Assembly (NCBI GenBank): GCA_023634235.1
Contig: JAMKCF010000003.1
Location: 18,694,742 to 18,758,741 of the forward strand
Direction of reading: 5' to 3'
Source of the DNA: Pisaster brevispinus
Taxonomy: Eukaryota; Echinodermata; Asteroidea; Forcipulatida; Asteriidae
Length of the DNA stretch: 64,000 nt
Below are positions 1-64,000 of the stretch, in pieces. Positions within the stretch are counted from its first letter, which is position 1. Every line of letters begins with the position of its first letter. A model generated the notes under the pieces. That model was not told where the DNA came from. It saw only the letters and a list, made by a program, of their open reading frames with translations, and ran no database searches. The position numbers and the translations under genes are program-made.

Positions 1-3000
1 TCTGAGTCTAAAGATTTGAATCATGATTTCACTTATGAGGTAGGAATTTCGCATGTCTTTGCGTGGAACAGATAGCCCAGTGGTTGGGCGATAGTTTCTG
101 GTGGATCGGGACCACGGTACGAATCCCGGCATGGTCCTTGATTCACAATTTCTTTTGTCTAGTTCTTTTGATTTGAATCATGATTTCACTTTTGAGGTAG
201 GAATTTCGGTTGTCTTTGCGTGGAACAGATATCCCAGTGGTTGCGAGATAGTTTCTGGTGGATCTAGACCCCGATTCGAATCCCGGCAGTGTCTTGGATC
301 TTATTTTTCTTTTTTTTCCGAGTCTAAGGATTTGAATCATGATTTCACTTATGACGTATGAATTTCGCTTGTCTTTGCGTGGAACACATAGCCCAGTGGT
401 TGGGAGATAGTTTCTGGTGGATCGGGACCACGGTTCGAATCCCAGCAAAGTCCTAGATTCACTTTTTCTTTTTTCTGAGTCTAAAGATTTGAATCATGAT
501 TTCACTTATTAGGTAGGAATTTCGCATGTCTTTGCGTGGAACAGATAGCCCAGTGGTTGGGAGATAGTTTCTGGTGGATCGGGACCACGGTTCGAATCCC
601 GGCATGGTCCTTGATTCACAATTTCTTTTGTCTAAGTCTTTAGATTTGAATCATGATTTCACTTTTGAGGTAGGAATTTTGCTTGTCTTTGCGTGGAACA
701 CATAGCCCAGTGGTTGAAAGATAGTTTCTTGTGGATCAGGACCACGGTTCGAATCCCGGCATGGTCCTTGATTCACAATTTCTTTTGTCTAAGTCTTTAG
801 ATTTGAATCATGATTTCACTTTTGAGGTAGGAATTTTGCTTGTCTTTGCGTGGAACACATAGCCCAGTGGTTGAAAGATAGTTTCTTGTGGATCAGGACC
901 ACGGTTCGAATCCCGACAAGGTCCTAGATTCACTTTTTCTTTTTTCTGAGTCTAAAGATTTGAATCATGATTTCACTTATGGCTTAGAAATTTCGCTTGT
1001 CTTTGCGTGGAACAGATAGCCCAGTGGTTAGGAGATAGTTTCTGGTGGATCGGGACCACGGTTCGAACACCGACAAGGTACTTCATTCACTTTTTCTTTT
1101 TTCTGAGTCTAAAGATTTGAATCATGACTTCACTTATGAGATAGGAATGTCGCTTGTCTTTGCGTGGAACAGATAGCCCAGTGGTTGGGAGATAGTTTCT
1201 GGTGGATCGGGACCACGGTTCGAATCCCAGCAAAGTCCTAGATTCACTTTTTCTTTTTTCTGAGTCTAAAGATTTGAATCATGATTTCACTTATGAGGTA
1301 GGAATTTCGCATGTCTTTGCGTGGAACAGATAGCCCAGTGGTTGGGCGATAGTTTCTGGTGGATCGGGACCACGGTACGAATCCCGGCATGGTCCTTGAT
1401 TCACAATTTCTTTTGTCTAGTTCTTTTGATTTGAATCATGATTTCACTTTTGAGGTAGGAATTTCGGTTGTCTTTGCGTGGAACAGATATCCCAGTGGTT
1501 GCGAGATAGTTTCTGGTGGATCTAGACCCCGATTCGAATCCCGGCAGTGTCTTGGATCTTATTTTTCTTTTTTTTCCGAGTCTAAGGATTTGAATCATGA
1601 TTTCACTTATGACGTATGAATTTCGCTTGTCTTTGCGTGGAACACATAGCCCAGTGGTTGGGAGATAGTTTCTGGTGGATCGGGACCACGGTTCGAATCC
1701 CAGCAAAGTCCTAGATTCACTTTTTCTTTTTTCTGAGTCTAAAGATTTGAATCATGATTTCACTTATTAGGTAGGAATTTCGCATGTCTTTGCGTGGAAC
1801 AGATAGCCCAGTGGTTGGGAGATAGTTTCTGGTGGATCGGGACCACGGTTCGAATCCCGGCATGGTCCTTGATTCACAATTTCTTTTGTCTAAGTCTTTA
1901 GATTTGAATCATGATTTCACTTTTGAGGTAGGAATTTTGCTTGTCTTTGCGTGGAACACATAGCCCAGTGGTTGAAAGATAGTTTCTTGTGGATCAGGAC
2001 CACGGTTCGAATCCCGACAAGGTCCTAGATTCACTTTTTCTTTTTTCTGAGTCTAAAGATTTGAATCATGATTTCACTTATGGCTTAGAAATTTCGCTTG
2101 TCTTTGCGTGGAACAGATAGCCCAGTGGTTAGGAGATAGTTTCTGGTGGATCGGGACCACGGTTCGAACACCGACAAGGTACTTCATTCACTTTTTCTTT
2201 TTTCTGAGTCTAAAGATTTGAATCATGACTTCACTTATGAGATAGGAATGTCGCTTGTCTTTGCGTGGAACAGATAGCCCAGTGGTTGGGAGATAGTTTC
2301 TGGTAGATCGGTACCACGGTTCGAATCCCGGTAGGGTCCTTGATCCACTCTTCTTTTTTCTGAGTCTAAAGATTTTAATATTGATTTCACCTATGAGGTA
2401 GGAATTTCGCTTGTCTTTGCGTGGGACAAATAGCCCAGTGGTAGGGAGATAGTTTCTGGTGGATCGGGACCACGGTTCGAATCCCAGCAAAGTCCTAGAT
2501 TCACTTTTTCTTTTTTCTGAGTCTAAAGATTTGAATCATGATTTCACTTATTAGGTAGGAATTTCGCATGTCTTTGCGTGGAACAGATAGCCCAGTGGTT
2601 GGGAGATAGTTTCTGGTGGATCGGGACCACGGTTCGAATCCCGGCATGGTCCTTGATTCACAATTTCTTTTGTCTAAGTCTTTAGATTTGAATCATGATT
2701 TCACTTTTGAGGTAGGAATTTTGCTTGTCTTTGCGTGGAACACATAGCCCAGTGGTTGAAAGATAGTTTCTTGTGGATCAGGACCACGGTTCGAATCCCG
2801 ACAAGGTCCTAGATTCACTTTTTCTTTTTTCTGAGTCTAAAGATTTGAATCATGATTTCACTTATGGCTTAGGAATTTCGCTTGTCTTTGCGTGGAACAG
2901 ATAGCCCAGTGGTTGAAAGATAGTTTCTTGTGGATCAGGACCACGGTTCGAATCCCGACAAGGTCCTAGATTCACTTTTTCTTTTTTCTGAGTCTAAAGA

Positions 3001-3660
3001 TTTGAATCATGATTTCACTTATGGCTTAGAAATTTCGCTTGTCTTTGCGTGGAACAGATAGCCCAGTGGTTAGGAGATAGTTTCTGGTGGATCGGGACCA
3101 CGGTTCGAACACCGACAAGGTACTTCATTCACTTTTTCTTTTTTCTGAGTCTAAAGATTTGAATCATGACTTCACTTATGAGATAGGAATGTCGCTTGTC
3201 TTTGCGTGGAACAGATAGCCCAGTGGTTGGGAGATAGTTTCTGGTAGATCGGTACCACGGTTCGAATCCCGGTAGGGTCCTTGATCCACTCTTCTTTTTT
3301 CTGAGTCTAAAGATTTTAATATTGATTTCACCTATGAGGTAGGAATTTCGCTTGTCTTTGCGTGGGACAAATAGCCCAGTGGTAGGGAGATAGTTTCTGG
3401 TGGGTCGGGACCACGGTTCGAATCCCGGCAGTGTCCTCGATTCACTTGTTTTTCTGAGTCTAAAGATTTGAATCATGATTTCACTTATGAGGTAAGATTT
3501 TCGCATGTATTTGCATGGAACAGATAGCCGAGTTGTTGGGAGATAGTTTCTGGTGGATCGGAACCACGGTTCGAATCCCGGCAAAGTCCTTGATTCACTT
3601 TGTTTTTTTCTGAGTCTAAAGATTTGAATCATGATTTCACTTATGAGGTAGGAATTTCGC
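1..3660 (+). repeat. Array block A: 8-, 7- and 6-monomer repeats
   Basis: The sequence from position 1 recurs from 1259, a shift of 1,258 bp (8 monomers). Copy 1 has one more monomer of the GTTGAAAGATAG type than copy 2, so after about 760 the shift becomes 1,101 bp. A marker with a damaged B box, GTTCGAACACCG, sits at 1061, 2162 and 3103, giving shifts of 1,101 and 941 bp. These steps of one monomer point to unequal exchange. Confidence 0.8.
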
Positions 3661-7220: not shown

Positions 7221-7319
7221 GCTGAGTCTAAAGATAGCCTAGTGGTTGGGAGATAGTTTCTGGTGGATCGTGACCACGGTTCGAATCCCGGCAGTGTCCT
7301 TGACTCACTCTTTCTTTGT
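7221..7319 (+). repeat. 99-bp truncated monomer, copy 1
   Basis: This unit lacks 58 bp of spacer. AAAGAT is joined straight to AGCCTAGTGG, and the missing stretch is bounded by GAT on both sides, as expected of a deletion between short direct repeats. The A box, B box and T-rich tail remain. Confidence 0.85.
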
Positions 7320-7592
7320 TCTAAGTCTTTAGATTTGAATTATGATTTCACTTATGAGGTATAGATTGCGCTTGTCTTTGCTTGGAACAAATAGCCCAGT
7401 GGTTGGGATATAGTTTCTGGTGGATCGGGACCACGGTTCGAATCCGGGCGGTGTCCTTGATTCACTTTTTCTTTTTTTCTGAATCTAAAGTTTTGAATCA
7501 TGATTTCACTAATGAGGTAGATATTTCGCTTGTCTTTGCGTGGAACAAATAGCCCAGTGGTTGGGAGATAGTTTCTGGTGGGTCGGCACCAC

Positions 7593-7603: not shown

Positions 7604-7652
7604 CGGCAGTGTCCTTGATTCACTTTTTCTTTTTTCTAAGTTTTTAGATTTG

Positions 7653-12900: not shown

Positions 12901-14590
12901 TTTAGCTTTTTTCTAAGTCTTTAGATTTGAATCTTGATTTCACTTATGAGGTAGGAATTTCGCTTGTCTTTGCGTGGAACAGATAGCCCAGTGGTTGGGC
13001 GATAGTTTCTGGTGGATCGGGACCACGGTTCGAATCCCGGCATGGTCCTTGATTCACAATTTATTTTGTCTAAGTCTTTAGATTTGAATCATGATTTCAC
13101 TTTTGAGGTAGGAATTTCGCTTGTCTTTGCGTGGAACACATAGCCCAGTGGTTGGGAGATAGTTTCTTGTGGATCAGGACCACGGTTCGAATCCCGACAA
13201 GGTCCTAGATTCACTTTTTCTTTTTTCTGAGTCTAAAGATTTGAATCATGATTTCACTTATGAGGTAGGAATTTCGCTTGTCTTTGCGTGGAACACAAAG
13301 CTCAGTGGTTGGGAGACGTTTTCTGGTGGATCGGGACCACGGTTCTAATCCCGGCAGGGTCCTTGATTCACTTTTTCTTTTTTTGAAGTCTTTAGATTTT
13401 AATAATGATTTCACCTATGAGGTAGGAATTTCGCTTGTCTTTGCGTGGAACAGACAGCCCAGTGGTTGGGACACAGTTTCTGGTGGATCGGCACCCCGGT
13501 TCGAATCCCGGCAGGGTCCTTGATTCACTTTTGCTTTTTTCTAAGTCTTTAGATTTGAATCTTGATTTCACTTATGAGGTAGGAATTTCGCTTGTCTTTG
13601 CCTGGAACAAATAGCACAGTGGTTGGGACATAGTTTCTGGTGGGTCGGAACCCCGGTTCGAATCCCGGCAGTGTCCTTGGTTCACTTTTTCTTTTTTTCT
13701 GAGTCTAAAGATTTGAATCATGATTTCACTTTTGAGGTAGGAATTTCGCTTGTCTTTGCGTGGAACAAATAGCCCAGTGGTTGGGAGATAGTTTCTGGTG
13801 GGTCGGGACCACGGTTCGAATCCGGACAAGGTCCTTGATTCACTTTTTCTTTTTGCTGAGTCTAAAGATAGCCTAGTGGTTGGGAGATAGTTTCTGGTGG
13901 ATCGTGACCACGGTTCGAATCCCGGCAGTGTCCTTGACTCACTCTTTCTTTGTTCTAAGTCTTTAGATTTGAATCATGATTTCACTTATGAGGTATAGAT
14001 TGCGCTTGTCTTTGCTTGGAACAAATAGCCCAGTGGTTGGGATATAGTTTCTGGTGGATCGGGACCACGGTTCGAATCCGGGCGGTGTCCTTGATTCACT
14101 TTTTCTTTTTTTCTGAATCTAAAGTTTTGAATCATGATTTCACTTATGATGTAGATATTTCGCTTGTCTTTGCGTGGAACAAATAGCCCAGTGGTTGGGA
14201 GATAGTTTCTGGTGGGTCGGCACCACGGTTCTAATCCCGGCAGTGTCCTTGATTCACTTTTTCTTTTTTCTAAGTTTTTAGATTTGAATCATGATTTCAC
14301 TTATGAGGTAGGAATTTCGCTTGTCTTTGCGTGGAACAAATAGCCCAGTGGTTGGGAGACAGTTTCTGGTGGATCGGGACCACGGTTCGAATCCCGGCAG
14401 GGTCCTTGATTCATTTTTTCTGTTTTCTAAGTCTTTAGATTTGAATCATGATTTCACTTATGAGGTAAGAATTTCGCTTGTCTTTGCGTGGAACAGATAG
14501 CCCAGTGGTTGGAAGAAAGTTTCTGGTGGGCCGGGACCATGGTTCGAATCCCGGCAGTGTCCTTGATTCACTTTGTTTTTGCTGAGTCTA
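9933..14590 (+). repeat. Array block A'B'C': downstream copies of blocks A, B and C
   Basis: From 9933 the sequence follows block A (start near 318 and the GTTCGAACACCG marker at 10519, 7,416 bp after 3103). From about 11060 it follows block B with a shift near 7,574 bp. At about 13800 it jumps to the block C segment that carries the 99-bp monomer. The join at 13800 lies inside a monomer and keeps the register. Confidence 0.75.
13855..13953 (+). repeat. 99-bp truncated monomer, copy 3
   Basis: Same breakpoint and tail as the copies at 7221 and 9206. It lies 4,649 bp after copy 2, inside the downstream duplicate of block C. Confidence 0.85.
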
Positions 14591-16571
14591 AGGATTTGAA
14601 TCATGATTTCACTTATGAGGTAGGAATTTCGCTTGTCTTTGCGTGGAACAAATAGCCCAGTGGTTGGGCAATAGTTTCTGGTGGGTCGGGACTACGGTTC
14701 GAATCCCGGCAGGGTCCTTGATTCACTTTTTCTTTTTTCTAAGTCTTTAGATTTGAATCATGATTTCACTTATGAGGTAGGAATTTCGCTTGTCTTTGCG
14801 TGGAACAAATAGCCCAGTGGTTGGGAGACAGTTTCTGGTGGATCGGGACTACGGTTCGAATCCCGGCAGGGTCCTTGATTCACTTTTTCTGTTCTAAGTC
14901 TTTAGATTTGAATCATGATTTCACTTATGAGGTTATAGATTGCGCTTGTCTTTGCGTGGAACAAATAGCCCAGTCGTTGGGAGATAGTTTCTGGTGGGTC
15001 GTGACCACGGTTCGAATCCGGACAAGGTCCTTGATTCACTTTTTCTTTTTGCTGAGTCTAAGGATTTGAATCGTGATTTCACTTATGATGTAAGAATTTC
15101 GCTTGTCTTTGCGTGGAACAGATAGCCTAGTGGTTGGGAGATAGTTTCTGGTGGATCGTGACCACGGTTCGATACCCGGCAGTGTCCTTGACTCACTTTT
15201 TCTTTTTTCTAAGTCTTTAGATTTGAATCATGATTTCACTTATGAGGTAAGAATTTCGCTTGTCTTTGCGTGGAACACATAGCCCAGTGGTTGGGAAATA
15301 GTTTCTGGTGGGTCGGGACTACGCTTCGAATCCCGGCAGGGTCCTTGATTCACTCTTTCTTTTTTCTAAGTCTTTAGATTTGAATCATGATTTCACTTAT
15401 GAGGTATAGATTGCGCTTGTCTTTGCTTGGAACAAATAGCCCAGTGGTTGGGAGACAGTTTCTGGTGGGTCGGGACCACCGTTAGAATCCGGGCGGTGTC
15501 CTTGATTCACTTTTTCTTTTTTCTGAGTCTAAAGATTTGAATCATGATTTCACTTATGAGGTAGATATTTCGCTTGTCTTTGCGTGGAACAAATAGCCCA
15601 GTGGTTGGGAGATAGTTTCTGGTGGGTCGGCACCACGGTTCTAATCCCGGCAGTGTCCTTGATTCACTTTTTCTTTTTTCTAAGTTTTTAGATTTGAATC
15701 ATGATTTCACTTATGAGGTAGGAATTTCGCTTGTCTTTGCGTGGAACAAATAGCCCAGTGGTTGGGAGACAGTTTCTGGTGGGTCGGGACCACCGTTTGA
15801 ATCCGGGCGGTGTCCTTGATTCACTTCTTCTTTTTTCTGAGTCTAAAGATTTGAATCATGATTTCACTATGAGGTAGATATTTCGCTTGTCTTTGCGTGG
15901 AACAAATAGCCCAGTGGTTGGCAAATAGTTTCTGGTGGGTCGGCACCACGGTTCTAATCCCGGCAGTGTCCTTGATTCACTTTTTCTTTTTTCTAAGTTT
16001 TTAGATTTGAATCATGATTTCACTTATGAGGTAGGAATTTCGCTTGTCTTTGCCAGGAACAAATAGCCCAGTGGTTGGGAGACAGTTTCTGGTGGATCGG
16101 GACCACGGTTCGAATCCCGGCAGGGTCCTTGATTCACTTTTTCTGTTTTCTAAGTCTTTAGATTTGAATCATGATTTCACTTATGAGGTTATAGATTGCG
16201 CTTGTCTTTGCGTGGAACAAATAGCCCAGTGGTTGGGAGATAGTTTCTGGTGGGTCGGGACCACGGTTCGAATCCGGACAAGGTCCTTGATTCACTTTTT
16301 CTTTTTGCTGAGTCTAAGGATTTGAATCGTGATTTCACTTATGATGTAAGAATTTCGCTTGTCTTTGCGTGGAACAGATAGCCCAGTGGTTGGGAGATAT
16401 TTTCTGGTGGGTCGGCACCACGGTTCTAATCCCGGCAGTGTCCTTGATTCACTTTTTATTTTTTCTAAGTTTTTAGATTTGAATCATGATTTCACTTATG
16501 AGGTAGGAATTTCGCTTGTCTTTGCGTGGAACAAATAGCCCAGTGGTTGGGAGACAGTTTCTGGTGGGTCG

Positions 16572-16600
16572 GGACCACCGTTCGAATCCGGGCGGTGTCC
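16572..16600 (+). other. Strong hairpin variant around the B box
   Basis: In this subfamily GGA and CACCG pair with CGGTG and TCC, giving eight base pairs with one bulged C and a 12-nt loop holding TTCGAATCC. The same form occurs near 15472, 17503, 18288, 20320 and 20628, some copies with an extra change. The B box itself is altered to CGTTCGAATCC. Confidence 0.6.
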
Positions 16601-17091
16601 TTGATTCACTTCTTCTTTTTTCTGAGTCTAAAGATTTGAATCATGATTTCACTTATGAGGTAGATATTTCGCTTGTCTTTGCGTGGAACAAATAGCCCAG
16701 TGGTTGGGAGATAGTTTCTGGTGGGTCGGCACCACGGTTCTAATCCCGGCAGTGTCCTTGATTCACTTTTTCTTTTTTCTAAGTTTTTAGATTTGAATCA
16801 TGATTTCACTTATGAGGTAGGAATTTCGCTTGTCTTTGCGTGGAACAAATAGCCCAGTGGTTGGGAGACAGTTTCTGGTGGGTCGGGACCAACGTTCGAA
16901 TCCGGGCGGTGTCCTTGATTCACTTTTTCTTTTTTCTAAGTCTTTAGATTTGAATCATGATTTCAAATATGAGGTAAAGATTGCGCTTGTCTTTGCGTGG
17001 AACAAATATCCCAGTGGTTGGGAGACAGTTTCTGGTTGATCGTGACCACGGTTCGAATCCCGGCAGTGTCCTTGACTCACTTTGTCTTTTT

Positions 17092-17234
17092 TCTAAGTCT
17101 TTAGATTTGAATCATGATTTCACTTATGAGGTAAGAATTTCGCTTGTCTTTGCCCAGTGGTTGGGAAATAGTTTCTGGTGGGTCGGGACTACGGTTCGAA
17201 TCCCGGCAGGGTCCTTGATTCACTTTTTCTTTTT
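17092..17234 (+). repeat. 143-bp monomer with broken A box, copy 1
   Basis: Fourteen bases are missing between TTTGC and CCAGTGG. The deletion removes the start of the A box (TAGC) and the last part of the spacer, and it is flanked by GC on both sides. The B box and tail remain. Confidence 0.87.
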
Positions 17235-19274
17235 TCTAAGTCTTTAGATTTGAATCATGATTTAACTTATGAGGTATAGATTGCGCTTGTCTTTGCGTGG
17301 AACAAATAGCCCAGTGGTTGGGAGATAGTTTCTGGTTGATCGTGACCACGGTTCGAATCCCGGCAGGGTCCTTGATTCACTTTTTCTTTTTTCTAAGTTT
17401 TTAGATTTGAATCATGATTTCACTTATGAGGTAGGAATTTCGCTTGTCTTTGCGTGGAACAAATAGCCCAGTGGTTGGGAGACAGTTTCTGGTGGGTCGG
17501 GACCACCGTTCGAATCCGGGCGGTGTCCTTGATTCACTTTTTCTTTTTTCTGAGTCTAAAGATTTGAATCATGATTTCACTTATGAGGTAGATATTTCGC
17601 TTGTCTTTGCGTGGAACAAATAGCCCAGTGGTTGGGAGATAGTTTCTGGTGGGTCGGCACCACGGTTCTAATCCCGGCAGTGTCCTTGATTCACTTTTTC
17701 TTTTTTCTAAGTTTTTAGATTTGAATCATGATTTCACTTATGAGGTAGGAATTTCGCTTGTCTTTTCGTGGAACAAATAGCCCAGTGGTTGGGAGACAGT
17801 TTCTGGTGGATCGGGACCACGGTTCGAATCCCGGCAGGGTCCTTGATTCACTTTTTCTGTTTTCTAAGTCTTTAGATTTGAATCATGATTTCACTTATGA
17901 GGTAAGAATTTCGCTTGTCTTTGCGTGGAACAGATAGCCCAGTGGTTGGAAGAAAGTTTCTGGTGGGCCGGGACCATGGTTCGAATCCCGGCAAAGTCCT
18001 TGATTCACTTTGTTTTTGCTGAGTCTAAGGATTTGAATCATGATTTCACTTATGAGGTAGATATTTCGCTTGTCTTTGCGTGGAACAAATAGCCCAGTGG
18101 TTGGGAGATAGTTTCTGGTGGGTCGGCACCACGGTTCTAATCCCGGCAGTGTCCTTGATTCACTTTTTCTTTTTTCTAAGTTTTTAGATTTGAATCATGA
18201 TTTCACTTATGAGGTAGGAATTTCGCTTGTCTTTGCGTGGAACAAATAGCCCAGTGGTTGGGAGACAGTTTCTGGTGGGTCGGGACCACCGTTCGAATCC
18301 GGGCGGTGTCCTTGATTCACTTCTTCTTTTTTCTGAGTCTAAAGATTTGAATCATGATTTCACTTATGAGGTAGATATTTCGCTTGTCTTTGCGTGGAAC
18401 AAATAGCCCAGTGGTTGGGAGATAGTTTCTGGTGGGTCGGCACCACGGTTCTAATCCCGGCAGTGTCCTTGATTCACTTTTTCTTTTTTCTAAGTTTTTA
18501 GATTTGAATCATGATTTCACTTATGAGGTAGGAATTTCGCTTGTCTTTGCCAGGAACAAATAGCCCAGTGGTTGGGAGACAGTTTATGGTGGATCGGGAC
18601 CACGGTTCGAATCCCGGCAGGGTCCTTGATTCACTTTTTCTGTTTTCTAAGTCTTTAGATTTGAATCATGATTTCACTTATGAGGTTATAGATTGCGCTT
18701 GTCTTTGCGTGGAACAAATAGCCCAGTGGTTGGGAGATAGTTTCTGGTGGGTCGGGACCACGGTTCGAATCCGGACAAGGTCCTTGATTCACTTTTTCTT
18801 TTTGCTGAGTCTAAGGATTTGAATCGTGATTTCACTTATGATGTAAGAATTTCGCTTGTCTTTGCGTGGAACAGATAGCCTAGTGGTTGGGAGATAGGTT
18901 CTGGTGGATCGTGACCACGGTTCGAATCCCGGCAGTGTCCTTGACTCACTTTTTCTTTTTTCTAAGTCTTTAGATTTGAATCATGATTTCACTTATGAGG
19001 TAAGAATTTCGCTTGTCTTTGCGTGGAACAAATATCCCAGTGGTTGGCAAATAGTTTCTGGTGGGTCGGGACCACGGTTCGAATCCCGGCAGGGTCCTTG
19101 ATTCACTTTTTCTTTTTTCTAAGTCTTTAGATTTGAATCATGATTTCAAATATGAGGTAAAGATTGCGCTTGTCTTTGCGTGGAACAAATATCCCAGTGG
19201 TTGGGAGACAGTTTCTGGTTGATCGTGACCACGGTTCGAATCCCGGCAGTGTCCTTGACTCACTTTGTCTTTTT

Positions 19275-19417
19275 TCTAAGTCTTTAGATTTGAATCATGA
19301 TTTCACTTATGAGGTAAGAATTTCGCTTGTCTTTGCCCAGTGGTTGGGAAATAGTTTCTGGTGGGTCGGGACTACGGTTCGAATCCCGGCAGGGTCCTTG
19401 ATTCACTTTTTCTTTTT
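19275..19417 (+). repeat. 143-bp monomer with broken A box, copy 2
   Basis: Identical 14-bp deletion to the copy at 17092. It marks the first full 2,341-bp unit. Confidence 0.87.
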
Positions 19418-21615: not shown

Positions 21616-21758
21616 TCTAAGTCTTTAGATTTGAATCATGATTTCACTTATGAGGTAAGAATTTCGCTTGTCTTTGCCCAGTGGTTGGGAAATAGTTTCT
21701 GGTGGGTCGGGACTACGGTTCGAATCCCGGCAGGGTCCTTGATTCACTTTTTCTTTTT
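21616..21758 (+). repeat. 143-bp monomer with broken A box, copy 3
   Basis: Identical deletion, exactly 2,341 bp after copy 2. Confidence 0.87.
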
Positions 21759-45300: not shown

Positions 45301-47690
45301 ATCCCGGCAGTGTCCTTCATTCACTTTTTTCTTTTTTCTAAGTCTTTAGATTTGAATCATGATTTAACTTATGAGGTAGGAATTTTGCTTGTCTTTGCGT
45401 GGAACAAATAGCCCAGTGGTTGGGAGATAGTTTCTGGTGGATCGGGACCACGGTTCGAATCCCGGCAGGGTTTTTGATTCACTTTTTCTTTTTGCTGAGT
45501 CTAAGGATTTGAATCGTGATTTCACTTATGAGGTAAGAATGTTGCTTGTCTTTGCGTGGAACAGATAGCCTAGTGGTTGGGAGATAGTTTCTGGTGGATC
45601 GTCACCACGGTTCGAATCCCGGCAGTGTCCTTGACTCACTTTGTCTTTTTTCTGAGTCTAAAGATTTGAATCATGATTTCACTTATGAGGTAGATATTTC
45701 GCTTGTCTTTGCGTGGAACAAATAGCCCAGTGGTTGGGAGATAGTTTCTGGTGGGTCGGCACCACGGTTCTAATCCCGGCAGTGTCCTTGATTCACTTTT
45801 TCTTTTTTCTAAGTTTTTAGATTTGAATCATGATTTCACTTATGATGTAGGAATTTCGCTTGTCTTTGCGTGGAACGAATAGCCCAGTGGTTGGGAGACA
45901 GTTTCTGGTGGATCGGGACCACGGTTCGAATCCCGTCAGGGTCCTTGATTCACTTTTTCTTTTTTCTAAGTCTTTAGATTTGAATCATGATTTCACTTAT
46001 GAGGTAAGAATTTCGCTTGTCTTTGCGTGGAACACATAGCCCAGTGGTTGGGACATAGTTTCTGGTGGCTCGGGACCACGGTTCGAATCCCGACAAGGTC
46101 CTTGATTCACTTTTTCTTTTAGCTGAGTCTAAAGATTTGAATCATGATTTCACTTTTGAGGTAGATATTTCGCTTGTCTTTGCGTGGAACACATAGCCCA
46201 GTGGTTGGGACAAAGTTTCTGGTGGCTCGGGACCACGGTTCGAATCCCAACAAGGTCCTTGATTCACTTTTTCTTTTAGCTGAGTCTAAGGATTTGAATC
46301 ATGATTTCACTTATGAGGTAAGAATTTCGCTTGTCTTTGCGTGGAACACATAGCCCAGTGGTTGGGAAACAGTTTTTTGGTGGGTCGGGACCACGGTTCT
46401 AATCCCGGCAGTGTCCTTGATTCACTTTTTCTTTTTTCTAAGTCTTTAGATTTGAATCATGATTTCACTTATGAGGTAGGAATTTTGCTTGTCTTTGCGT
46501 GGAACAAATAGCCCAGTGCTTGGGAGACAGTTTCTGGTGGATCGGGACCACGGTTCGAATCCCGTCAGGGTCCTTGATTTACTTTTTCTTTTTTCTAAGT
46601 CTTTAGATTTGAATCATGATTTCACTTATGAGGTAAGAATTTCGCTTGTCTTTGCGTGGAACACATAGCCCAGCGGTTGGGAAATAGTTTCTGGTGGGTC
46701 GGGACCACGGTTCTAATCCCGGCAGTGTCCTTGATTCACTTTTTTCTTTTTTTCTAAGTCTTTTAATTTGAATCATGATTTCACTTATGAGGTAGGAATT
46801 TTGCTTGTCTTTGCGTGGAACAAATAGCCCAGTGGTTGGGAGATAGTTTCTGGTGGGTCGGGACCACGGTTCGAATCCCGGCAAAGTCCTTGATTCACTT
46901 TTTCTTTTGTCTGAGTCTAAAGATTTGAATCATGATTTCACTTTTGAGGTAGATATTTCGCTTGTCTTTGCGTGGAACACATAGCCCAGTCGTTGGGAGA
47001 CAGTTTCTGGTAGATCGGGACCACAGTTCGAATCCCGGCAGGGTTTTTGATTCACTTTTTCTTTTTGCTGAGTCTAAGGATTTGAATCGTGATTTCACTT
47101 ATGAGGTAAGAATGTTGCTTGTCTTTGCGTGGAACAGATAGCCTAGTGGTTGGGAGATAGTTTCTGGTGGATCGTCACCACGGTTCGAATCCCGGCAGTG
47201 TCCTTGACTCACTTTGTCTTTTTTCTGAGTCTAAAGATTTGAATCATGATTTCACTTATGAGGTAGATATTTCGCTTGTCTTTGCGTGGAACAAATAGCC
47301 CAGTGGTTGGGAGATAGTTTCTGGTGGGTCGGCACCACGGTTCTAATCCCGGCAGTGTCCTTGATTCACTTTTTCTTTTTTCTAAGTTTTTAGATTTGAA
47401 TCATGATTTCACTTATGAGGTAAGAATTTCGCTTGTCTATGCGTGGAACAGATAGCCCAGTGGTTGGGAGATAGTTTCTGGTGGGTCGGGACCACGGTTC
47501 TAATCCCGGCAGTGTCCTTGATTCACTTTTTCTTTTTTCTAAGTCTTTAGATTTGAATCATGATTTCACTTATGAGGTAATAATTTCGCTTGTCCTTGCG
47601 TGGAACACATAGCCCAGTGCTTGGGAGACAGTTTCTGGTGGATCGGGACCACGGTTCGAATCCCGGCAGGGTCCTTGATTCACTTTTTCT
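39350..47690 (+). repeat. Higher-order repeat, 4,091-bp unit (26 monomers), two copies plus a partial third
   Basis: Copy 1 is about 39350-43440 and copy 2 about 43441-47530. A marker ATGAGGTAATAATTT lies at 39391, 43482 and 47572. Segments starting at 39523, 40467 and 42512 recur at 43614, 44558 and 46603, always 4,091 bp away. By eye I found only three base differences in the parts I compared (41365/45456, 42122/46213, 42439/46530). Odd features are shared, such as ACAGTTCGAATCC near 42932 and 47023. Each unit also contains an internal 944-bp (6-monomer) duplication. Confidence 0.9.
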
Positions 47691-48290
47691 TTTTGCTGAG
47701 TCTAAGGATTTGAATCATGATTTCACTTATGAGGTAAGAATTTCGCTTGTCTTTGCGTGGAACAGATAGCCCAGTGGTTGGGAGATAGTTTCTGGTGGAT
47801 CGGGACCACGGTTCGAATCCCGGCAGGGTCCTTGATTCACTTTTTCTTTTTCTAAGTCTTTAGATTTGAATCATGCTTTCACTTATGAGGTATAGATTGC
47901 GCTTGTCTTTGAGTGGAACGAATAGCCCAGTGGTTGGGAGATAGTTTCTGGTGGATCGGGACCCCGGTTCGAATCCCGACAAGGTCCTAGATTCACTTTT
48001 TATTTTTCCTAAGTCTTTAGATTTGAATCATGATTTCACTTATGAGGTAGGAATTTCGCTTGTCTTTGCGTGGAACAAATAGCCCAGTGGTTGGGAGATA
48101 GTTTGTGGTGGATCGGGACCCCAGTTCGAATCTCGTCAGTGTTCTTGATTCACTTTTTTTCTTTTTCTGAGTCTAACGATTTGAATCATGATTTCACTTA
48201 TGACGTAGGAATTTCGCTAGTCTTTGCGTGGAACACATAGCCCAGTGGTTGGGAGATAGTTTGTGGTGGATCGGGACCCCAGTTCGAATC
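47691..48290 (+). repeat. Array block H: transition to the right-hand family
   Basis: A few monomers bridge the 4,091-bp HOR and the 3,288-bp HOR. New traits start here: GTTTGTGGTGG in place of GTTTCTGGTGG, CCCCAGTTCGAATC at the B box (GG changed to AG), and TGAGTCTAACGAT at the monomer start. Confidence 0.65.
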
Positions 48291-51200
48291 CCGGCAGGGT
48301 CCTTGATTCACTTTTTCTTTGTTCTAAGTCTTTAAAATTGAATCATGATTTCACTTATGAGGTAGGAATTTCGCTTGTCTTTGCGTGGAACAAATAGCCC
48401 AGTGGTTTGAAACTAGTTTGTGGTGGGTCGGGACCACGGTTCGAATCCCGGCAGTGTCCTTGATTCACTTTTTCTTTTTTCTAAGTCTTTAGATTTGAAT
48501 CATGATTTCACTTATGAGGTAATAATTTCGCTTGTCCTTGCGTGGAACACATAGCCCAGTGCTTGGGAGACAGTTTCTGGTGGATCGGGACCACGGTTCG
48601 AATCCCGGCAGGGTCCTTGATTCACTTTTTCCTTTTTCTGAGTCTAAGGATTTGAATCATGATTTAACTTATGACGTATGAATTTCGCTTGTCTTTGCGT
48701 GGAACAGATAGCCCAGTGGTTGGGAGATATTTTCTGGTGGATCGGGACCACGGTTCGAATCCCGAAAAGCTACTTGATTCACTTTTTCTTTTTTCTGAGT
48801 CTAAAGATTTGAATCATGATTTCACTTATGAGGTAAGAATTTCGCTTGTCTTTGCGTGGAACAGATAGCCCAGTGGTTGGGAGATAGTTTCTGGTGGATC
48901 GGGACAACGGTTCGAATCCCGGCAAAGTCCTTGATTACCTTTTTTTCTGAGTCTAAAGATTTGAATCATGATTTCACTTATGACGTATGAATTTCGCTTG
49001 TCTTTGCGTGGAATAGATAGCCCAGTGGTTGGGAGATAGTTTCTTGTGGATCAGGACCACGGTTCGAATCCTGGTAGGGTCTTTGATCCCCTTACATTTT
49101 TTCTGAGTCTAAAGATTTGAATCATGATTTCACTTATGAGGTAGGAATTTCGCATGTCTTTGCGTGGAACAGATAGGCCAGTGGTCGGGAGATAGTTTCT
49201 GGTGGATCGGGACCACGGTTCGAATCCCGGCAGTGTCCTTGATTAACTTTTTTTCTTTTTCAGAGTCTAAAGATTTTAATCATGATTTCACTTATGATGT
49301 AGGAATTTCGCTTGTCTTTGAGTGGAACACATAGCCCAGTGGTTTGGGAGATAGTTTCTGGTGGAGCGGGACCACGGTTCGAATCCCGACAAGGTACTTC
49401 ATTCACTTTTGTTTTCTGAGTCTAAAGATTTGAATCATGACTTCACTTATGAGGTAGGAATTTCGCTTGTCTTTGCGTGGAACAGATAGCCCAGTGGTTG
49501 GGAGATAGTTTCTGGTGGATCGGGACCACGGTTCGAATCCCGACAAAGTACTTGATTCACTTTTTCTTTTTTCTAAGTCTTAAGATTTGAATCATGACTT
49601 CTCTTATGATGTAGGAATTTCGCTTGTCTTTGCGTGAAACAGATAGCCCAGTGGTTTCGGAGATAGTTTCTGGTGGATCGGGACCCTGGTTCGAATCCCG
49701 GCAGTTACCTTGATCTTCTTTTTATTTTTTCTGAGTCTAAGGATTTGAATCATGATTTCACTTATGACGTATGAATTTCGCTTGTCTTTTCGTGGAACAG
49801 ATATCCCAGTGGTTGGGAGATAGTTTCTGGTGGATCGGGATCCCGGTTCGAATCCCGGCAGGTTCCTTGATATACTTTTTCTTTTTTCTAAGTCTTTAAA
49901 TTTGAATCATGATTTCACTCATGAGGTAGGAATTTCGCTTGTCTTTGCGTGGAACAGATAGCCCAGTGGTTGGGAGATAGTTTCTGGTGGATCGGGACCC
50001 CGGTTCGAATCCCGGCAAGGTCCTAGATTCACTTTTTCTTTATTTTGAGTCTAAAGATTTGAATCATGATTTCACTTATGAGGTAGGAATTTCGCTTGTC
50101 TTTCCGTGGAACAGATAGCCCAGTGGTTGGGAGATAGTTTCTTGTGGATCAGAACCACGGTTCGAATCAGGTAGGATCCTTGATCCCCTTACCTTTTTTC
50201 TGAGATCTAAAGATCTGAATCATGATTTTACTTATGAGGTAGGAATTTCGCATGTCTTTGCGTGGAACACATAGCCCAGTGGTTGTGAGAAAGTTTATGG
50301 TGGATCGGGACCACGGTTCGAATCCCGGCAAAGTCCTTGATTAACTTCTTTTTTTTCTGAGTCTAAGGATTTGAATCATGATTTAACTTAAGACGTATGA
50401 ATTTCGCTTGTCTTTGCGTGGAACAGATAGCCCAGTGGTTGGGAGATAGTTTCTGGTGGATCGGGACCACGGTTCGAATACCGGCAAAGTCCTTGATTTA
50501 CTTTTTCTTTTTTCTCAGTCTTTAGATTTGAATCATGATTTCACATATGAGGTAGGAATTTCGCTTGTCTTTGCGTGGAACAAATAGCCCAGTGGTTGGG
50601 AGATAGTTTGTGGTGGATCGGGACCCCAGTTCGAATCTCGTCAGTGTTCTTGATTCACTTTTTTCTTTTTCTGAGTCTAACGATTTGAATCATGATTTCA
50701 CTTATGACGTAGGAATTTCGCTAGTCTTTGCGTGGAACACATAGCCCAGTGGTTGGGAGATAGTTTGTGGTGGATCGGGACCCCAGTTCGAATCCCGGCA
50801 GGGTCCTTGATTCACTTTTTCTTTGTTCTAAGTCTTTAAAATTGAATCATGATTTCACTTATGAGGTAGGAATTTCGCTTGTCTTTGCGTGGAACAAATA
50901 GCCCAGTGGTTTGAAACTAGTTTGTGGTGGGTCGGGACCACGGTTCGAATCCCGTCAGTGTTCTTGATTCACTTTTTCCTTTTTCTGAGTCTAACGATTT
51001 GAATCATGATTTCACTTATGTGGTAGGAATTTCGCTTGTCTTTGCGTGGAACAAATAGCCCAGTGGTTGGGAGATATTTTCTGGTGGATCGGGACCACGG
51101 TTCGAATCCCGAAAAGCTACTTGATTCACTTTTTCTTTTTTCTGAGTCTAAAGATTTGAATCATGATTTCACTTATGAGGTAAGAATTTCGCTTGTCTTT

Positions 51201-54200
51201 GCGTGGAACAGATAGCCCAGTGGTTGGGAGATAGTTTCTTGTGGATCAGGACCACGGTTCGAATCCTGGTAGGGTCTTTGATCCCCTTACATTTTTTCTG
51301 AGTCTAAAGATTTGAATCATGATTTCACTTATGAGGTAGGAATTTCGCATGTCTTTGCGTGGAACAGATAGGCCAGTGGTCGGGAGATAGTTTCTGGTGG
51401 ATCGGGACCACGGTTCGAATCCCGGCAGTGTCCTTGATTCACTTTTTTCTTTTTCAGAGTCTAAAGATTTTAATCATGATTTCACTTATGATGTAGGAAT
51501 TTCGCTTGTCTTTGCGTGGAACAGATAGCCCAGTGGTTGGGAGATAGTTTCTGGTGGATCGGGACCACGGTTCGAATCCCGGCAGGGTCCTTGATTCACT
51601 TTTTCTTTGTTCTAAGTCTTTAAAATTGAATCATGATTTCACTTATGAGGTAGGAATTTCGCTTGTCTTTGCGTGGAACAAATAGCCCAGTGGTTTGAAA
51701 CTAGTTTGTGGTGGGTCGGGACCACGGTTCGAATCCCGGCAGTGTCCTTGATTCACTTTTTCTTTTTTCTAAGTCTTTAGATTTGAATCATGATTTCACT
51801 TATGAGGTAATAATTTCGCTTGTCCTTGCGTGGAACACATAGCCCAGTGCTTGGGAGACAGTTTCTGGTGGATCGGGACCACGGTTCGAATCCCGGCAGG
51901 GTCCTTGATTCACTTTTTCCTTTTTCTGAGTCTAAGGATTTGAATCATGATTTAACTTATGACGTATGAATTTCGCTTGTCTTTGCGTGGAACAGATAGC
52001 CCAGTGGTTGGGAGATATTTTCTGGTGGATCGGGACCACGGTTCGAATCCCGAAAAGCTACTTGATTCACTTTTTCTTTTTTCTGAGTCTAAAGATTTGA
52101 ATCATGATTTCACTTATGAGGTAAGAATTTCGCTTGTCTTTGCGTGGAACAGATAGCCCAGTGGTTGGGAGATAGTTTCTGGTGGATCGGGACAACGGTT
52201 CGAATCCCGGCAAAGTCCTTGATTACCTTTTTTTCTGAGTCTAAAGATTTGAATCATGATTTCACTTATGACGTATGAATTTCGCTTGTCTTTGCGTGGA
52301 ATAGATAGCCCAGTGGTTGGGAGATAGTTTCTTGTGGATCAGGACCACGGTTCGAATCCTGGTAGGGTCTTTGATCCCCTTACATTTTTTCTGAGTCTAA
52401 AGATTTGAATCATGATTTCACTTATGAGGTAGGAATTTCGCATGTCTTTGCGTGGAACAGATAGGCCAGTGGTCGGGAGATAGTTTCTGGTGGATCGGGA
52501 CCACGGTTCGAATCCCGGCAGTGTCCTTGATTAACTTTTTTTCTTTTTCAGAGTCTAAAGATTTTAATCATGATTTCACTTATGATGTAGGAATTTCGCT
52601 TGTCTTTGAGTGGAACACATAGCCCAGTGGTTTGGGAGATAGTTTCTGGTGGAGCGGGACCACGGTTCGAATCCCGACAAGGTACTTCATTCACTTTTGT
52701 TTTCTGAGTCTAAAGATTTGAATCATGACTTCACTTATGAGGTAGGAATTTCGCTTGTCTTTGCGTGGAACAGATAGCCCAGTGGTTGGGAGATAGTTTC
52801 TGGTGGATCGGGACCACGGTTCGAATCCCGACAAAGTACTTGATTCACTTTTTCTTTTTTCTAAGTCTTAAGATTTGAATCATGACTTCTCTTATGATGT
52901 AGGAATTTCGCTTGTCTTTGCGTGAAACAGATAGCCCAGTGGTTTCGGAGATAGTTTCTGGTGGATCGGGACCCTGGTTCGAATCCCGGCAGTTACCTTG
53001 ATCTTCTTTTTATTTTTTCTGAGTCTAAGGATTTGAATCATGATTTCACTTATGACGTATGAATTTCGCTTGTCTTTTCGTGGAACAGATATCCCAGTGG
53101 TTGGGAGATAGTTTCTGGTGGATCGGGATCCCGGTTCGAATCCCGGCAGGTTCCTTGATATACTTTTTCTTTTTTCTAAGTCTTTAAATTTGAATCATGA
53201 TTTCACTCATGAGGTAGGAATTTCGCTTGTCTTTGCGTGGAACAGATAGCCCAGTGGTTGGGAGATAGTTTCTGGTGGATCGGGACCCCGGTTCGAATCC
53301 CGGCAAGGTCCTAGATTCACTTTTTCTTTATTTTGAGTCTAAAGATTTGAATCATGATTTCACTTATGAGGTAGGAATTTCGCTTGTCTTTCCGTGGAAC
53401 AGATAGCCCAGTGGTTGGGAGATAGTTTCTTGTGGATCAGAACCACGGTTCGAATCAGGTAGGATCCTTGATCCCCTTACCTTTTTTCTGAGATCTAAAG
53501 ATCTGAATCATGATTTTACTTATGAGGTAGGAATTTCGCATGTCTTTGCGTGGAACACATAGCCCAGTGGTTGTGAGAAAGTTTATGGTGGATCGGGACC
53601 ACGGTTCGAATCCCGGCAAAGTCCTTGATTAACTTCTTTTTTTTCTGAGTCTAAGGATTTGAATCATGATTTAACTTAAGACGTATGAATTTCGCTTGTC
53701 TTTGCGTGGAACAGATAGCCCAGTGGTTGGGAGATAGTTTCTGGTGGATCGGGACCACGGTTCGAATACCGGCAAAGTCCTTGATTTACTTTTTCTTTTT
53801 TCTCAGTCTTTAGATTTGAATCATGATTTCACATATGAGGTAGGAATTTCGCTTGTCTTTGCGTGGAACAAATAGCCCAGTGGTTGGGAGATAGTTTGTG
53901 GTGGATCGGGACCCCAGTTCGAATCTCGTCAGTGTTCTTGATTCACTTTTTTCTTTTTCTGAGTCTAACGATTTGAATCATGATTTCACTTATGACGTAG
54001 GAATTTCGCTAGTCTTTGCGTGGAACACATAGCCCAGTGGTTGGGAGATAGTTTGTGGTGGATCGGGACCCCAGTTCGAATCCCGGCAGGGTCCTTGATT
54101 CACTTTTTCTTTGTTCTAAGTCTTTAAAATTGAATCATGATTTCACTTATGAGGTAGGAATTTCGCTTGTCTTTGCGTGGAACAAATAGCCCAGTGGTTT

Positions 54201-54866
54201 GAAACTAGTTTGTGGTGGGTCGGGACCACGGTTCGAATCCCGTCAGTGTTCTTGATTCACTTTTTCCTTTTTCTGAGTCTAACGATTTGAATCATGATTT
54301 CACTTATGTGGTAGGAATTTCGCTTGTCTTTGCGTGGAACAAATAGCCCAGTGGTTGGGAGATATTTTCTGGTGGATCGGGACCACGGTTCGAATCCCGA
54401 AAAGCTACTTGATTCACTTTTTCTTTTTTCTGAGTCTAAAGATTTGAATCATGATTTCACTTATGAGGTAAGAATTTCGCTTGTCTTTGCGTGGAACAGA
54501 TAGCCCAGTGGTTGGGAGATAGTTTCTTGTGGATCAGGACCACGGTTCGAATCCTGGTAGGGTCTTTGATCCCCTTACATTTTTTCTGAGTCTAAAGATT
54601 TGAATCATGATTTCACTTATGAGGTAGGAATTTCGCATGTCTTTGCGTGGAACAGATAGGCCAGTGGTCGGGAGATAGTTTCTGGTGGATCGGGACCACG
54701 GTTCGAATCCCGGCAGTGTCCTTGATTCACTTTTTTCTTTTTCAGAGTCTAAAGATTTTAATCATGATTTCACTTATGATGTAGGAATTTCGCTTGTCTT
54801 TGCGTGGAACAGATAGCCCAGTGGTTGGGAGATAGTTTCTGGTGGATCGGGACCACGGTTCGAATC
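48291..54866 (+). repeat. Higher-order repeat, 3,288-bp unit (21 monomers), two copies
   Basis: About 48291-51578 recurs at 51579-54866. Checked markers include 48671/51959, 49081/52369, 49573/52861 and 50621/53909, all exactly 3,288 bp apart. Distinct monomers include one with a B box cut to GGTTCGAATCAGG (near 50160 and 53448) and one with ATAGGCCAGTGGTCGGG in the A-box region. Tails such as CCCCTTACATTTTTTC still keep a T6 run. Confidence 0.87.
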
Positions 54867-57530
54867 CCGACAAAGTACTTGATTCACTTTTTCTTTTTTC
54901 TAAGTCTTAAGATTTGAATCATGACTTCTCTTATGATGTAGGAATTTCGCTTGTCTTTGCGTGAAACAGATAGCCCAGTGGTTTCGGAGATAGTTTCTGG
55001 TGGATCGGGACCCTGGTTCGAATCCCGGCAGTGTCCTTGATCTTCTTTTTATTTTTTCTGAGTCTAAGGATTTGAATCATGATTTCACTTATGACGTATG
55101 AATTTCGCTTGTCTTTTCGTGGAACAGATATCCCAGTGGTTGGGAGATAGTTTCTGGTGGATCGGGATCCCGGTTCGAATCCCGGCAGGTTCCTTGATAT
55201 ACTTTTTCTTTTTTCTAAGTCTTTAAATTTGAATCATGATTTCACTCATGAGGTAGGAATTTCGCTTGTCTTTGCGTGGAACAGATAGCCCAGTGGTTGG
55301 GAGATAGTTTCTGGTGGATCGGGACCCCGGTTCGAATCCCGGCAAGGTCCTAGATTCACTTTTTCTTTATTTTGAGTCTAAAGATTTGAATCATGATTTC
55401 ACTTATGAGGTAGGAATTTCGCTTGTCTTTGCGTGGAACAGATAGCCCAGTGGTTGGGAGATAGTTTCTTGTGGATCAGAACCACGGTTCGAATCAGGTA
55501 GGATCCTTGATCCCCTTACCTTTTTTCTGAGATCTAAAGATCTGAATCATGATTTTACTTATGAGGTAGGAATTTCGCATGTCTTTGCGTGGAACACATA
55601 GCCCAGTGGTTGTGAGAAAGTTTATGGTGGATCGGGACCACGGTTCGAATCCCGGCAAAGTCCTTGATTAACTTTTTTTTTTCTGAGTCTAAGGATTTGA
55701 ATCATGATTTAACTTATGACGTATGAATTTCGCTTGTCTTTGCGTGGAACAGATAGCCCAGTGGTTGGGAGATATTTTCTGGTGGATCGGGACCACGGTT
55801 CGAATCCCGAAAAGCTACTTGATTCACTTTTTCTTTTTTCTGAGTCTAAAGATTTGAATCATGATTTCACTTATGAGGTAAGAATTTCGCTTGTCTTTGC
55901 GTGGAACAGATAGCCCAGTGGTTGGGAGATAGTTTCTGGTGGATCGGGACAACGGTTCGAATCCCGGCAAAGTCCTTGATTACCTTTTTTTTCTGAGTCT
56001 AAAGATTTGAATCATGATTTCACTTATGACGTATGAATTTCGCTTGTCTTTGCGTGGAACAGATAGCCCAGTGGTTGGTAGATAGTTTCTGGTGGATCGG
56101 GACCACGGTTCGAATCCGGCAGGGTCGTTGATTCGCTTTTTTTCTTTTGTCTAAGTCTTTAGATTTGAATCATGATTTCACTTATGAGGTAGGAATTTCG
56201 ATTGTCTTTGCGTGGAATAGATAGCCCAGTGGTTGGGAGATAGTTTCTTGTGGATCAGGACCACGGTTCGAATCCTGGTAGGGTCTTTGATCCCCTTAAA
56301 TTTTTTCTGAGTCTAAAGATTTGAATCATGATTTCACTTATGAGGTAAGAATTTCGCTTGTCTTTGCGTGGAACAGATAGGCCAGTGGTCGGGAGATAGT
56401 TTCTGGTGGATCGGGACCACGGTTCGAATCCCGGCAGTGTCCTTGATTCACTTTTTTCTTTTTCAGAGTCTAAAGATTTTAATCATGATTTCACTTATGA
56501 TGTAGGAATTTCGCTTGTCTTTGCGTGGAACAGATAGCCCAGTGGTTGGGAGATAGTTTCTGGTGGATCGGGACCACGGTTCGAATCCCGACAAAGTACT
56601 TGATTCACTTTTTCTTTTTTCTAAGTCTTAAGATTTGAATCATGACTTCTCTTATGATGTAGGAATTTCGCTTGTCTTTGCGTGAAACAGATAGCCCAGT
56701 GGTTTCGGAGATAGTTTCTGGTGGATCGGGACCCTGGTTCGAATCCCGGCAGTGTCCTTGATCTTCTTTTTATTTTTTCTGAGTCTAAGGATTTGAATCA
56801 TGATTTCACTTATGACGTATGAATTTCGCTTGTCTTTTCGTGGAACAGATATCCCAGTGGTTGGGAGATAGTTTCTGGTGGATCGGGATCCCGGTTCGAA
56901 TCCCGGCAGGTTCCTTGATATACTTTTTCTTTTTTCTAAGTCTTTAAATTTGAATCATGATTTCACTCATGAGGTAGGAATTTCGCTTGTCTTTGCGTGG
57001 AACAGATAGCCCAGTGGTTGGGAGATAGTTTCTGGTGGATCGGGACCCCGGTTCGAATCCCGGCAAGGTCCTAGATTCACTTTTTCTTTATTTTGAGTCT
57101 AAAGATTTGAATCATGATTTCACTTATGAGGTAGGAATTTCGCTTGTCTTTGCGTGGAACAGATAGCCCAGTGGTTGGGAGATAGTTTCTTGTGGATCAG
57201 AACCACGGTTCGAATCAGGTAGGATCCTTGATCCCCTTACCTTTTTTCTGAGATCTAAAGATCTGAATCATGATTTTACTTATGAGGTAGGAATTTCGCA
57301 TGTCTTTGCGTGGAACACATAGCCCAGTGGTTGTGAGAAAGTTTATGGTGGATCGGGACCACGGTTCGAATCCCGGCAAAGTCCTTGATTAACTTTTTTT
57401 TTTCTGAGTCTAAGGATTTGAATCATGATTTAACTTATGACGTATGAATTTCGCTTGTCTTTGCGTGGAACAGATAGCCCAGTGGTTGGGAGATATTTTC
57501 TGGTGGATCGGGACCACGGTTCGAATCCCA
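54867..57530 (+). repeat. 1,721-bp (11-monomer) repeat of the right-hand family
   Basis: At about 54866 the sequence jumps back to the monomers found near 49550 and 52840. The segment 54540-55805 recurs at about 56261-57526 with a shift of 1,721 bp (for example 54900/56621 and 55716/57437). The register of monomers is kept at the jump. Confidence 0.8.
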
Positions 57531-62295: not shown

Positions 62296-64000
62296 CTTAT
62301 GAGGTAAGAATTTCGCTTGTCTTTGCGTGGAACAAATATCCCAGTGGTTGGCAAATAGTTTTTGGTGGGTCGGGACCACGGTTCGAATCCCGGCAGGGTC
62401 CTTGATTAACTTTTTCTTTTTTCTAAGTCTTAACATTTGAATCATGATTTCACTTATGAGGTATAGATTGCGCTTGTCTTTGCGTGGAACAAATATCCCA
62501 GTGGTTGGGAGACAGTTTCTGGTGGATCGGGACCACGGTTCGAATCCCGGCAGGGTCCTTGATTTACTTTTTCTTTTTTCTAAGTCTTTAGATTTGAATC
62601 GTGATTTCACTTATGAGGTAAGAATTTCGTTCGAATCCCGGCAGTGTTCTTGACTCACTTTTTCTTTTTTCTGAGTCTTAAGATTTGAATCATGATTTCC
62701 CTTATGAGGTAGATATTTTGCTTGTCTTTGCGTGGAACAAATATCCCAGTGGTTGGGAGACAGTTTCTGGTGGATCGGGACCACGGTTCGAATCCCGGCA
62801 GGGTCCTTGATTCACTTTTTCTTTTTTCTAAGTCTTTAGATTTGAATCATGATTTCACTTATCAGGTAAGAATTTCGTTTGTCTTTGCGTGGAACACATA
62901 GCCCAGTGGTTGGGAGATAGTTTCTGGTGGGTCGGGACTACGGTTCGAATCCCGGCAGGGTCCTTGATTCACTTTTTCTTTTTTCTAAGTCTTTAGATTT
63001 GAATCATGATTTCACTTATGAGGTATAGATTGCGCTTGTCTTTGCGTGGAACAAATAGCCCAGTGGTTGGGAGATAGTTTCTGGTGGGTCGGGACCACGG
63101 TTCGAATCCGGACAAGGTCCTTGATTCACTTTTTCTTTTTGCTGAGTCTAAGGATTTGAATCGTGATTTCACTTATGAGGTAAGAATGTCGCTTGTCTTT
63201 GCGTGGAACAGATAGCCTAGTGGTTGGGAGATAGTTTCTGGTGGATCGTGACCACGGTTCGAATCCCGGCAGTGTCCTTGACTCACTTTGTCTTTTTCTG
63301 AGTCTAAAGATTTGAATCATGATTTCACTTATGAGGTAGATATTTCGCTTGTCTTTGCGTGGAACAAATAGCCCAGTGGTTGGGAGATAGTTTCTGGTGG
63401 GTCGGCACCACGGTTCTAATCCCGGCAGTGTCCTTGATTCACTTTTTCTTTTTTCTAAGTTTTTAGATTTGAATCATGATTTCACTTATGAGGTAAGGAA
63501 TTTCGCTTGTCTTTGCGTGGAACAAATAGCCCAGTGGTTGGGAGACAGTTTCTGGTGGATCGGGACCACGGTTCGAATCCTGTCAGGGTCCTTGATTCAC
63601 TTTTTCTTTTTTCTAAGTCTTTAGATTTGAATCATGATTTCACTTATGAGATAAGAATTTCGCTTGTCTTTGCGTGGAACACATAGCCCAGTGGTTGGGA
63701 CATAGTTTCTGGTGGGTCGGGACCACGGTTCGAATCCCGACAAGGTCCTTGATTCACTTTTTCTTTTAGCTGAGTCTAAGGATTTGAATCATGATTTCAC
63801 TTATGAGGTAAGAATTTCGCTTGTCCTTGCGTGGAACACATAGCCCAGTGGTTGGCAAATAGTTTCTGGTGGGTCGGGACTACGGTTCGAATCCCGGCAG
63901 GGTCCTTGATTCACTTTTTCTTTTTTCTAAGTCTTTAGATTTGAATCATGATTTCACTTATGAGGTATAGATTGCGCTTGTCTTTGCGTGGAACAAATAG
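62296..64000 (+). repeat. Array block J: return of the 14-24 kb monomer family (partial)
   Basis: From about 62296 the types GGTATAGATTGCGC, GGTAGATATTTCGC, AGCCTAGTGG and the GGTTCTAATCC B-box variant reappear after being absent from the right-hand HORs. The order near 63000-63640 resembles that near 21000 and 23200. The window ends within a monomer. Confidence 0.75.
62579..62669 (+). repeat. 91-bp truncated monomer lacking the A box
   Basis: AATTTCG of the spacer is joined directly to TTCGAATCCC of the B box, removing 66 bp including the whole A box. TTCG is present on both sides of the missing stretch. The tail is intact. I saw only one such unit in the window. Confidence 0.87.

Follow-up and report, generated by a model that had tools for sequence, protein, structure and literature searches.

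Introduction

Do RNA polymerase III (pol III) signals help a repeat to become a satellite, or are they merely carried along while it does so? The question is raised by a stretch of 64,000 bp from the sea star Pisaster brevispinus (contig JAMKCF010000003.1, positions 18,694,742 to 18,758,741 of the forward strand; hereafter the window), which is filled by tandem copies of a unit with pol III promoter motifs. The array is a good place to ask because it is long and pure and because over half of its units carry both promoter boxes and a terminator-like T tract. We consider it probable that a sequence likely derived from a tRNA (the head of a short interspersed element, SINE, or a tRNA pseudogene) became tandem, that the resulting satellite of about 410 copies of 157 bp expanded through unequal exchange of multi-monomer blocks, and that the pol III signals remaining in its units would be, in all probability, relics.

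Extent and composition of the array

The whole window (1..64000, + strand) is a single head-to-tail satellite array, in which an nhmmer profile of the unit recognized 411 whole or partial units, every one of them on the + strand; the longest stretch outside the profile matches measures 11 bp. These matches bear out a preliminary description of the locus, made from the sequence alone, which had proposed one array of about 400 monomers on the same strand. Over its entire length the window is thus satellite DNA in the sense of a long head-to-tail array of one unit, and since the array continues past both window ends it is at least 64 kb long as assembled. Units are most often 157 bp long (272 of 411); those between 150 and 162 bp, 398 of the 411, are hereafter termed full monomers. 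These share a mean identity of 93% with the consensus and of 89% with one another (pairwise). Altogether 250 distinct exact sequences occur among the 411 units, and 242 distinct monomers were used for all counts of distinct monomers given below. Tandem Repeats Finder (TRF) reported periods of 157, 314 and 471 bp in the window.

Promoter motifs and the relation to tRNA

The consensus unit contains three motifs that we take to be an A box (TAGCCCAGTGG, columns 72-82 of the consensus), a B box (GGTTCGAATCC, columns 115-125) and a terminator (TTTTTCTTTTTT, i.e. T5CT6, columns 146-157), going by general knowledge of type 2 pol III promoters. The B box is exact and lies at tRNA spacing from the A box. 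All three can be read directly in an intact example monomer at 1103..1259 (+ strand, columns 1-157), with the A box at 1174..1184, the B box at 1217..1227 and the pol III terminator-like T tract at 1248..1259. Some tRNAs lack residue 17 in the D loop, and the distance between the two boxes fits tRNA numbering provided that the D loop of the unit lacks this residue as well. On reading the consensus, GCCC and GGGA could also pair to form three D-stem base pairs. A stricter A pattern, in which residue 17 was required, matched neither the consensus nor any of the 398 full monomers, and only after it had failed was the pattern loosened so that residue 17 may be absent and position 11 may be C or T. 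With this loosened pattern, an A box followed in order by a B box (gap of 20-45) was found in 1 of 100,000 dinucleotide-shuffled versions of the consensus, each read on both strands, and the consensus has the make-up of a type 2 pol III promoter unit (A and B boxes at tRNA spacing and a T-run terminator).

No tRNA gene was found by ARAGORN under default settings in the whole window, and the tRNA model of Rfam gave no match at E-values up to 10 in bases 1-6000 and 1165-1260, the stretches searched with it. A functional tRNA gene array was therefore rejected on both counts. Relaxed ARAGORN runs on the doubled consensus produced low-scoring 'tRNA-???' calls on both strands, which we do not count as evidence. 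The best Rfam match was to mascRNA, below the gathering score of 42.5 (27.8 bits in bases 1-6000 and 13.3 bits in 1165-1260), and is read here as a likeness to the T arm. Because both ARAGORN and the Rfam tRNA model were negative, the unit is best described as a promoter-like core with no recognisable tRNA gene. The preliminary description had called it a tRNA-derived, pol III-type unit; the promoter motifs, their spacing and the three possible D-stem pairs make this a fair inference, although a match to a tRNA model by ARAGORN or Rfam is missing.

Could the two boxes be chance resemblances within an unrelated satellite? The want of a tRNA model match and the need to loosen the A pattern would both agree with this, but an exact B box, an A box, tRNA spacing, a possible D stem and a T tract would all have to coincide, and the A and B boxes in order are by themselves a 1 in 100,000 event among shuffles; we regard coincidence as very unlikely.

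An internal duplication of the unit, suggested by a stretch resembling the B box at a distance of about 54/103 bp, was rejected, as 81 of 100 shuffles scored equally well. Searches for relatives of the unit outside the window were made in several collections. One pattern gave two 20-mer matches in genome_contigs, which share at best 20 and 22 bp with the unit and look like chance. Three unit patterns had no exact match in viral_contigs, and blastn of window positions 480-1100 found no match among plasmids and phages. Some of these collections may omit records of the source genome. Six stretches of the unit were absent from a full-text literature search, which is weak evidence, as sequence is rarely printed in papers.

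Probable growth by duplication of blocks

Mean monomer identity is flat across the array at lags of 1 to 40 monomers (0.881 to 0.896), and identity at lags 2 and 3 is no higher than at lag 1 over the array as a whole; in a central domain (13955..47695, + strand) the excess does not go beyond 0.007. Because of this flatness we reject a regular higher-order repeat, i.e. a multi-monomer unit kept in fixed register array-wide; the higher-order organisation claimed in the preliminary description was overstated, and what the array contains instead is a set of irregular duplicated blocks. The TRF scores for the 471-bp and 314-bp periods do exceed that for 157 bp, which favours some multimer structure, and single stretches show local lag peaks (e.g. 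lag 21 at 0.918 versus about 0.87 within 47.7-59.4 kb). Both are explained by the irregular block duplications.

Exact repeats of at least 200 bp form 279 pairs that cover 80% of the window; in the 40 longest pairs listed, the lag ranges from 4 to 49 monomers. The three longest measure 3,300, 2,204 and 2,014 bp, with lags of approximately 21, 15 and 26 monomers respectively. The first of these reflects a block of 3,288 bp, or about 21 monomers, present twice in tandem (48282..54869, + strand) and exact over 3,300 bp, while a second duplication at 39352..47422 (+ strand), with a lag of 4,091 bp or 26 monomers, is made up of exact pieces of 2,014, 755 and 892 bp. Such in-register blocks would be the expected trace of unequal exchange; gene conversion or replication-based amplification may also produce them.

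The same repeats bear on the quality of the assembly. That a block of 21 monomers should be exactly duplicated over 3,300 bp, when full monomers are on average 89% identical to each other, is what one might see if the size of the array or its long exact blocks had been inflated, in part, during assembly. Against this stand the 250 distinct sequences found in 411 units and the occurrence of exact repeats at many lengths and lags. We judge inflation to be rather unlikely, and it would in any case be compatible with growth of the array by unequal exchange.

Motif intactness and selection on the promoter

With the loosened A pattern, the A box is present in 321 of the 398 full monomers, the B box in 292, a run of four or more T in 396, and all three in 229. 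The corresponding figures for the 242 distinct monomers are 196, 174, 240 and 138. In 27 of the 398 full monomers a T4 run occurs prematurely, after the A box and before the B box. The commonest defect of the B box is a G-to-T change at column 120, seen in 79 of the 398, of which 68 lie between 14 and 47.5 kb; these 68 fall within the central domain, which is somewhat more homogeneous than the rest of the array. B boxes carry a purine at the position that matches column 120. The preliminary description had ascribed both boxes and a T-run tail to every monomer: this holds for the consensus but not for each monomer, given that all three motifs are found in only 229 of 398 and that the G-to-T change affects 79.

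Monomers with intact boxes could bind transcription factor IIIC (TFIIIC) and yield an RNA of about 86 nt. In the example monomer, the predicted pol III transcript spans 1167..1252 (+ strand, 86 nt), the start being assumed 7 nt upstream of the A box; on the same assumption, and with boxes located allowing up to three mismatches, the predicted length could be measured in 395 of the 398 full monomers and has a median of 86 nt. The predicted fold of this transcript has a z-score of -1.04, with 35 of 200 shuffles folding as well. RNAalifold, applied to columns 62-157 of the 242 distinct monomers, returned no structure (energy 0.0), and 60 of 60 column shuffles were as good or better, in a test of low power, as most of the shuffles are likewise unable to yield a structure.

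Monomers with intact A and B boxes occur on average 1.65 times (139 distinct sequences) and those with a broken box 1.63 times (103 distinct; Mann-Whitney p = 0.48), and it is because of this equality that the sequence leans towards signals that are carried along. The share of monomers with all three motifs is likewise similar in distinct (138/242) and in all full monomers (229/398), which is largely the same test. When the pattern of A and B columns was rotated around the unit, conservation was equal or better at 25 of the 157 offsets, the true one counted; with single boxes, this was the case at 30 offsets for A and 71 for B.

Several points weigh against relics of a tRNA-derived sequence spread by exchange. 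The boxes are better conserved than the average of the unit, with a divergence of 0.031 (A) and 0.036 (B) versus 0.069 over the unit as a whole. Of the distinct monomers, 57% follow the consensus at the A and B positions, compared with a mean of 35% over rotations, and almost every full monomer keeps its T tract. Directly 5' of the A box lies the best conserved block of 20 columns (columns 50-69; 1152..1171 in the example monomer, + strand), for which only 3 of 5000 column permutations gave a value as low (43 of 5000 by ranks), a result that is suggestive only, because the permutation ignores the shared ancestry of the monomers. This block is a candidate protein-binding site, or may reflect shared ancestry. 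Descent from a tRNA itself rests on the promoter motifs, because no tRNA model matches, and the exact 3.3-kb pair could be a very recent event or could have been duplicated in assembly. On balance, selection on the promoter is not clearly indicated, which suggests that the motifs serve no selected function, while the conservation of the boxes and the observations that accompany it leave room for a selected role.

Such a role would be played in a working pol III domain, in which many monomers are transcribed into tRNA-sized RNA or are bound by TFIIIC and thereby organise chromatin (as a boundary, by clustering or as heterochromatin). The 229 monomers with all three motifs, the T4 run in 396 of 398, the low divergence of the boxes and the conserved block that adjoins the A box are all in its favour. 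However, 79 full monomers carry the G-to-T change in the B box, intact monomers show no extra amplification, 25 of 157 rotated patterns are equally well conserved, the transcript folds no better than 35 of 200 shuffles (z = -1.04) and RNAalifold found no structure, although that test has little power here. We think a working domain unlikely. In its boldest form, hundreds of live pol III promoters would fill a domain of 64 kb or more, which TFIIIC would bind as a block and from which an 86-nt RNA would be made, with the conserved 20-bp element near the start as a further factor site. This form seems to us less likely again; if true, there would be one promoter per nucleosome-sized unit, and the chromatin identity of a satellite would be set by the pol III machinery.

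Related satellites and a possible SINE origin

In the preliminary description the class of satellite was held to be not without precedent. This proved correct, and the precedents are closer than was thought, comprising amphibian pol III families and squamate satellites (PMC10702118) as well as a limpet satellite (PMC11121367). Tandem pol III families of amphibians are reviewed in PMC10702118, which names four (Cynops PolIII/TAN, Xenopus OAX, Rana/polIII and Hy/polIII) and treats their link to SINEs as inconclusive and the tRNA origin of Hy/polIII as questionable, whereas a table in PMC9659126 derives Xenopus satellite 1 and Hy/Pol III from tRNA-related regions of SINE-like elements. Rana/polIII of green frogs is tandem like the present array and makes up to 10% of some genomes; its unit resembles tRNA over 64 nt (64% similarity) and, at about 250 nt, is longer than the 157-bp unit described here (PMC10702118). 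Cynops PolIII/TAN (Hirt) is a tandem repeat with a tRNA-like sequence for which, according to PMC10702118, no similar SINE was identified; its unit is longer (about 360 nt versus 157 bp) and is capable of transcription in vitro, whereas a transcript of the present unit is predicted only. Xenopus OAX, or satellite 1, is also a tandem repeat with a tRNA-derived segment (PMC10702118, PMC9659126), but PMC10702118 regards the unit as longer than that of a proper satellite and the link to SINEs as unconfirmed. Hy/polIII of Hydromantes salamanders is a tandem repeat of about 200 nt named for pol III (PMC10702118, PMC9659126); it is described as lacking box B, and its tRNA origin is doubted (PMC10702118), whereas the B box of our unit is exact.

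SINE-derived satellites (sSats) have been described from 56 squamate genomes (PMC10702118). Their tandem units stem from tRNA-related SINEs, show alternating subvariants and reach nearly 950 units per locus, with a mean monomer similarity of 89% in a cobra sample. The main snake unit is only 67 nt long and consists of box B and part of the SINE body, and the parent SINE is known for sSats but not for the array studied here (PMC10702118). PcH-sat of the limpet Patella caerulea is an AT-rich satellite of 179 bp with a segment like the tRNA-type Nin-SINE; boxes A and B are reported as absent from it, whereas the present unit keeps both (PMC11121367). Catfish satellites contain parts from SINEs and tRNA genes (PMC11955569). 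The tRNA gene arrays of Entamoeba are likewise tandem arrays of pol III units (PMC2652664), but these hold tRNA genes, of which ARAGORN found none in our window. With precedents in print from amphibians, squamates, a limpet, catfish and Entamoeba, the class of pol III or tRNA-like satellites is established; tRNA-like pol III satellites are on record for amphibians, reptiles and a mollusc, and the present array is of a known kind. It stands out by its length and purity and because over half of its units retain the T tract along with both boxes.

These precedents invite a narrower form of the explanation that we favour, namely a strict SINE-derived satellite whose unit, including the 64-bp part upstream, was cut from a SINE dispersed in the same genome. 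The squamate genomes offer parallels and the limpet a partial one (PMC10702118, PMC11121367). On the other hand, a SINE transcript should terminate at the T5CT6 tract, after its head and before its body, and inspection of the consensus by eye, without a search for long interspersed elements (LINEs), reveals neither an A-rich tail nor a LINE-like end. A strict SINE origin is therefore a tentative proposal, to which we give somewhat less than an even chance, within the broader account of a tRNA-derived satellite.

Other features of the array

Three truncated units of 91 bp (7230..7320, 9215-9305 and 13864-13954, + strand) lack approximately the first 66 columns and cover the promoter boxes, and each is preceded by a unit of 165-166 bp. 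Two linked haplotypes are found at columns 3, 9 and 10 (G..AA in 181 and A..TT in 204 of the 411 units, with 26 others), which are interleaved with no evident fixed period. The periodicity of WW dinucleotides has its top peak at 12.1 bp, near a harmonic of 157, and none near 10 bp among the eight peaks listed. Columns 18-27 (e.g. window positions 19-28) form a perfect palindrome in the consensus, AATCATGATT; the 12 columns best conserved by ranks begin at this palindrome, but 329 of 5000 permutations gave an equal result. Two open reading frames on the - strand, of 222 and 167 amino acids (3129-3797 and 10545-11048), cross satellite units and are likely chance open frames; no others of at least 120 amino acids occur in the window. 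At the six CpG sites of the unit, C-to-T changes have a frequency of 0.034 versus 0.042 at other C, and G-to-A changes of 0.021 versus 0.039, so that no decay of CpG sites relative to other sites was seen in the unit, a hint that CpG methylation is low in the germ line of the host.

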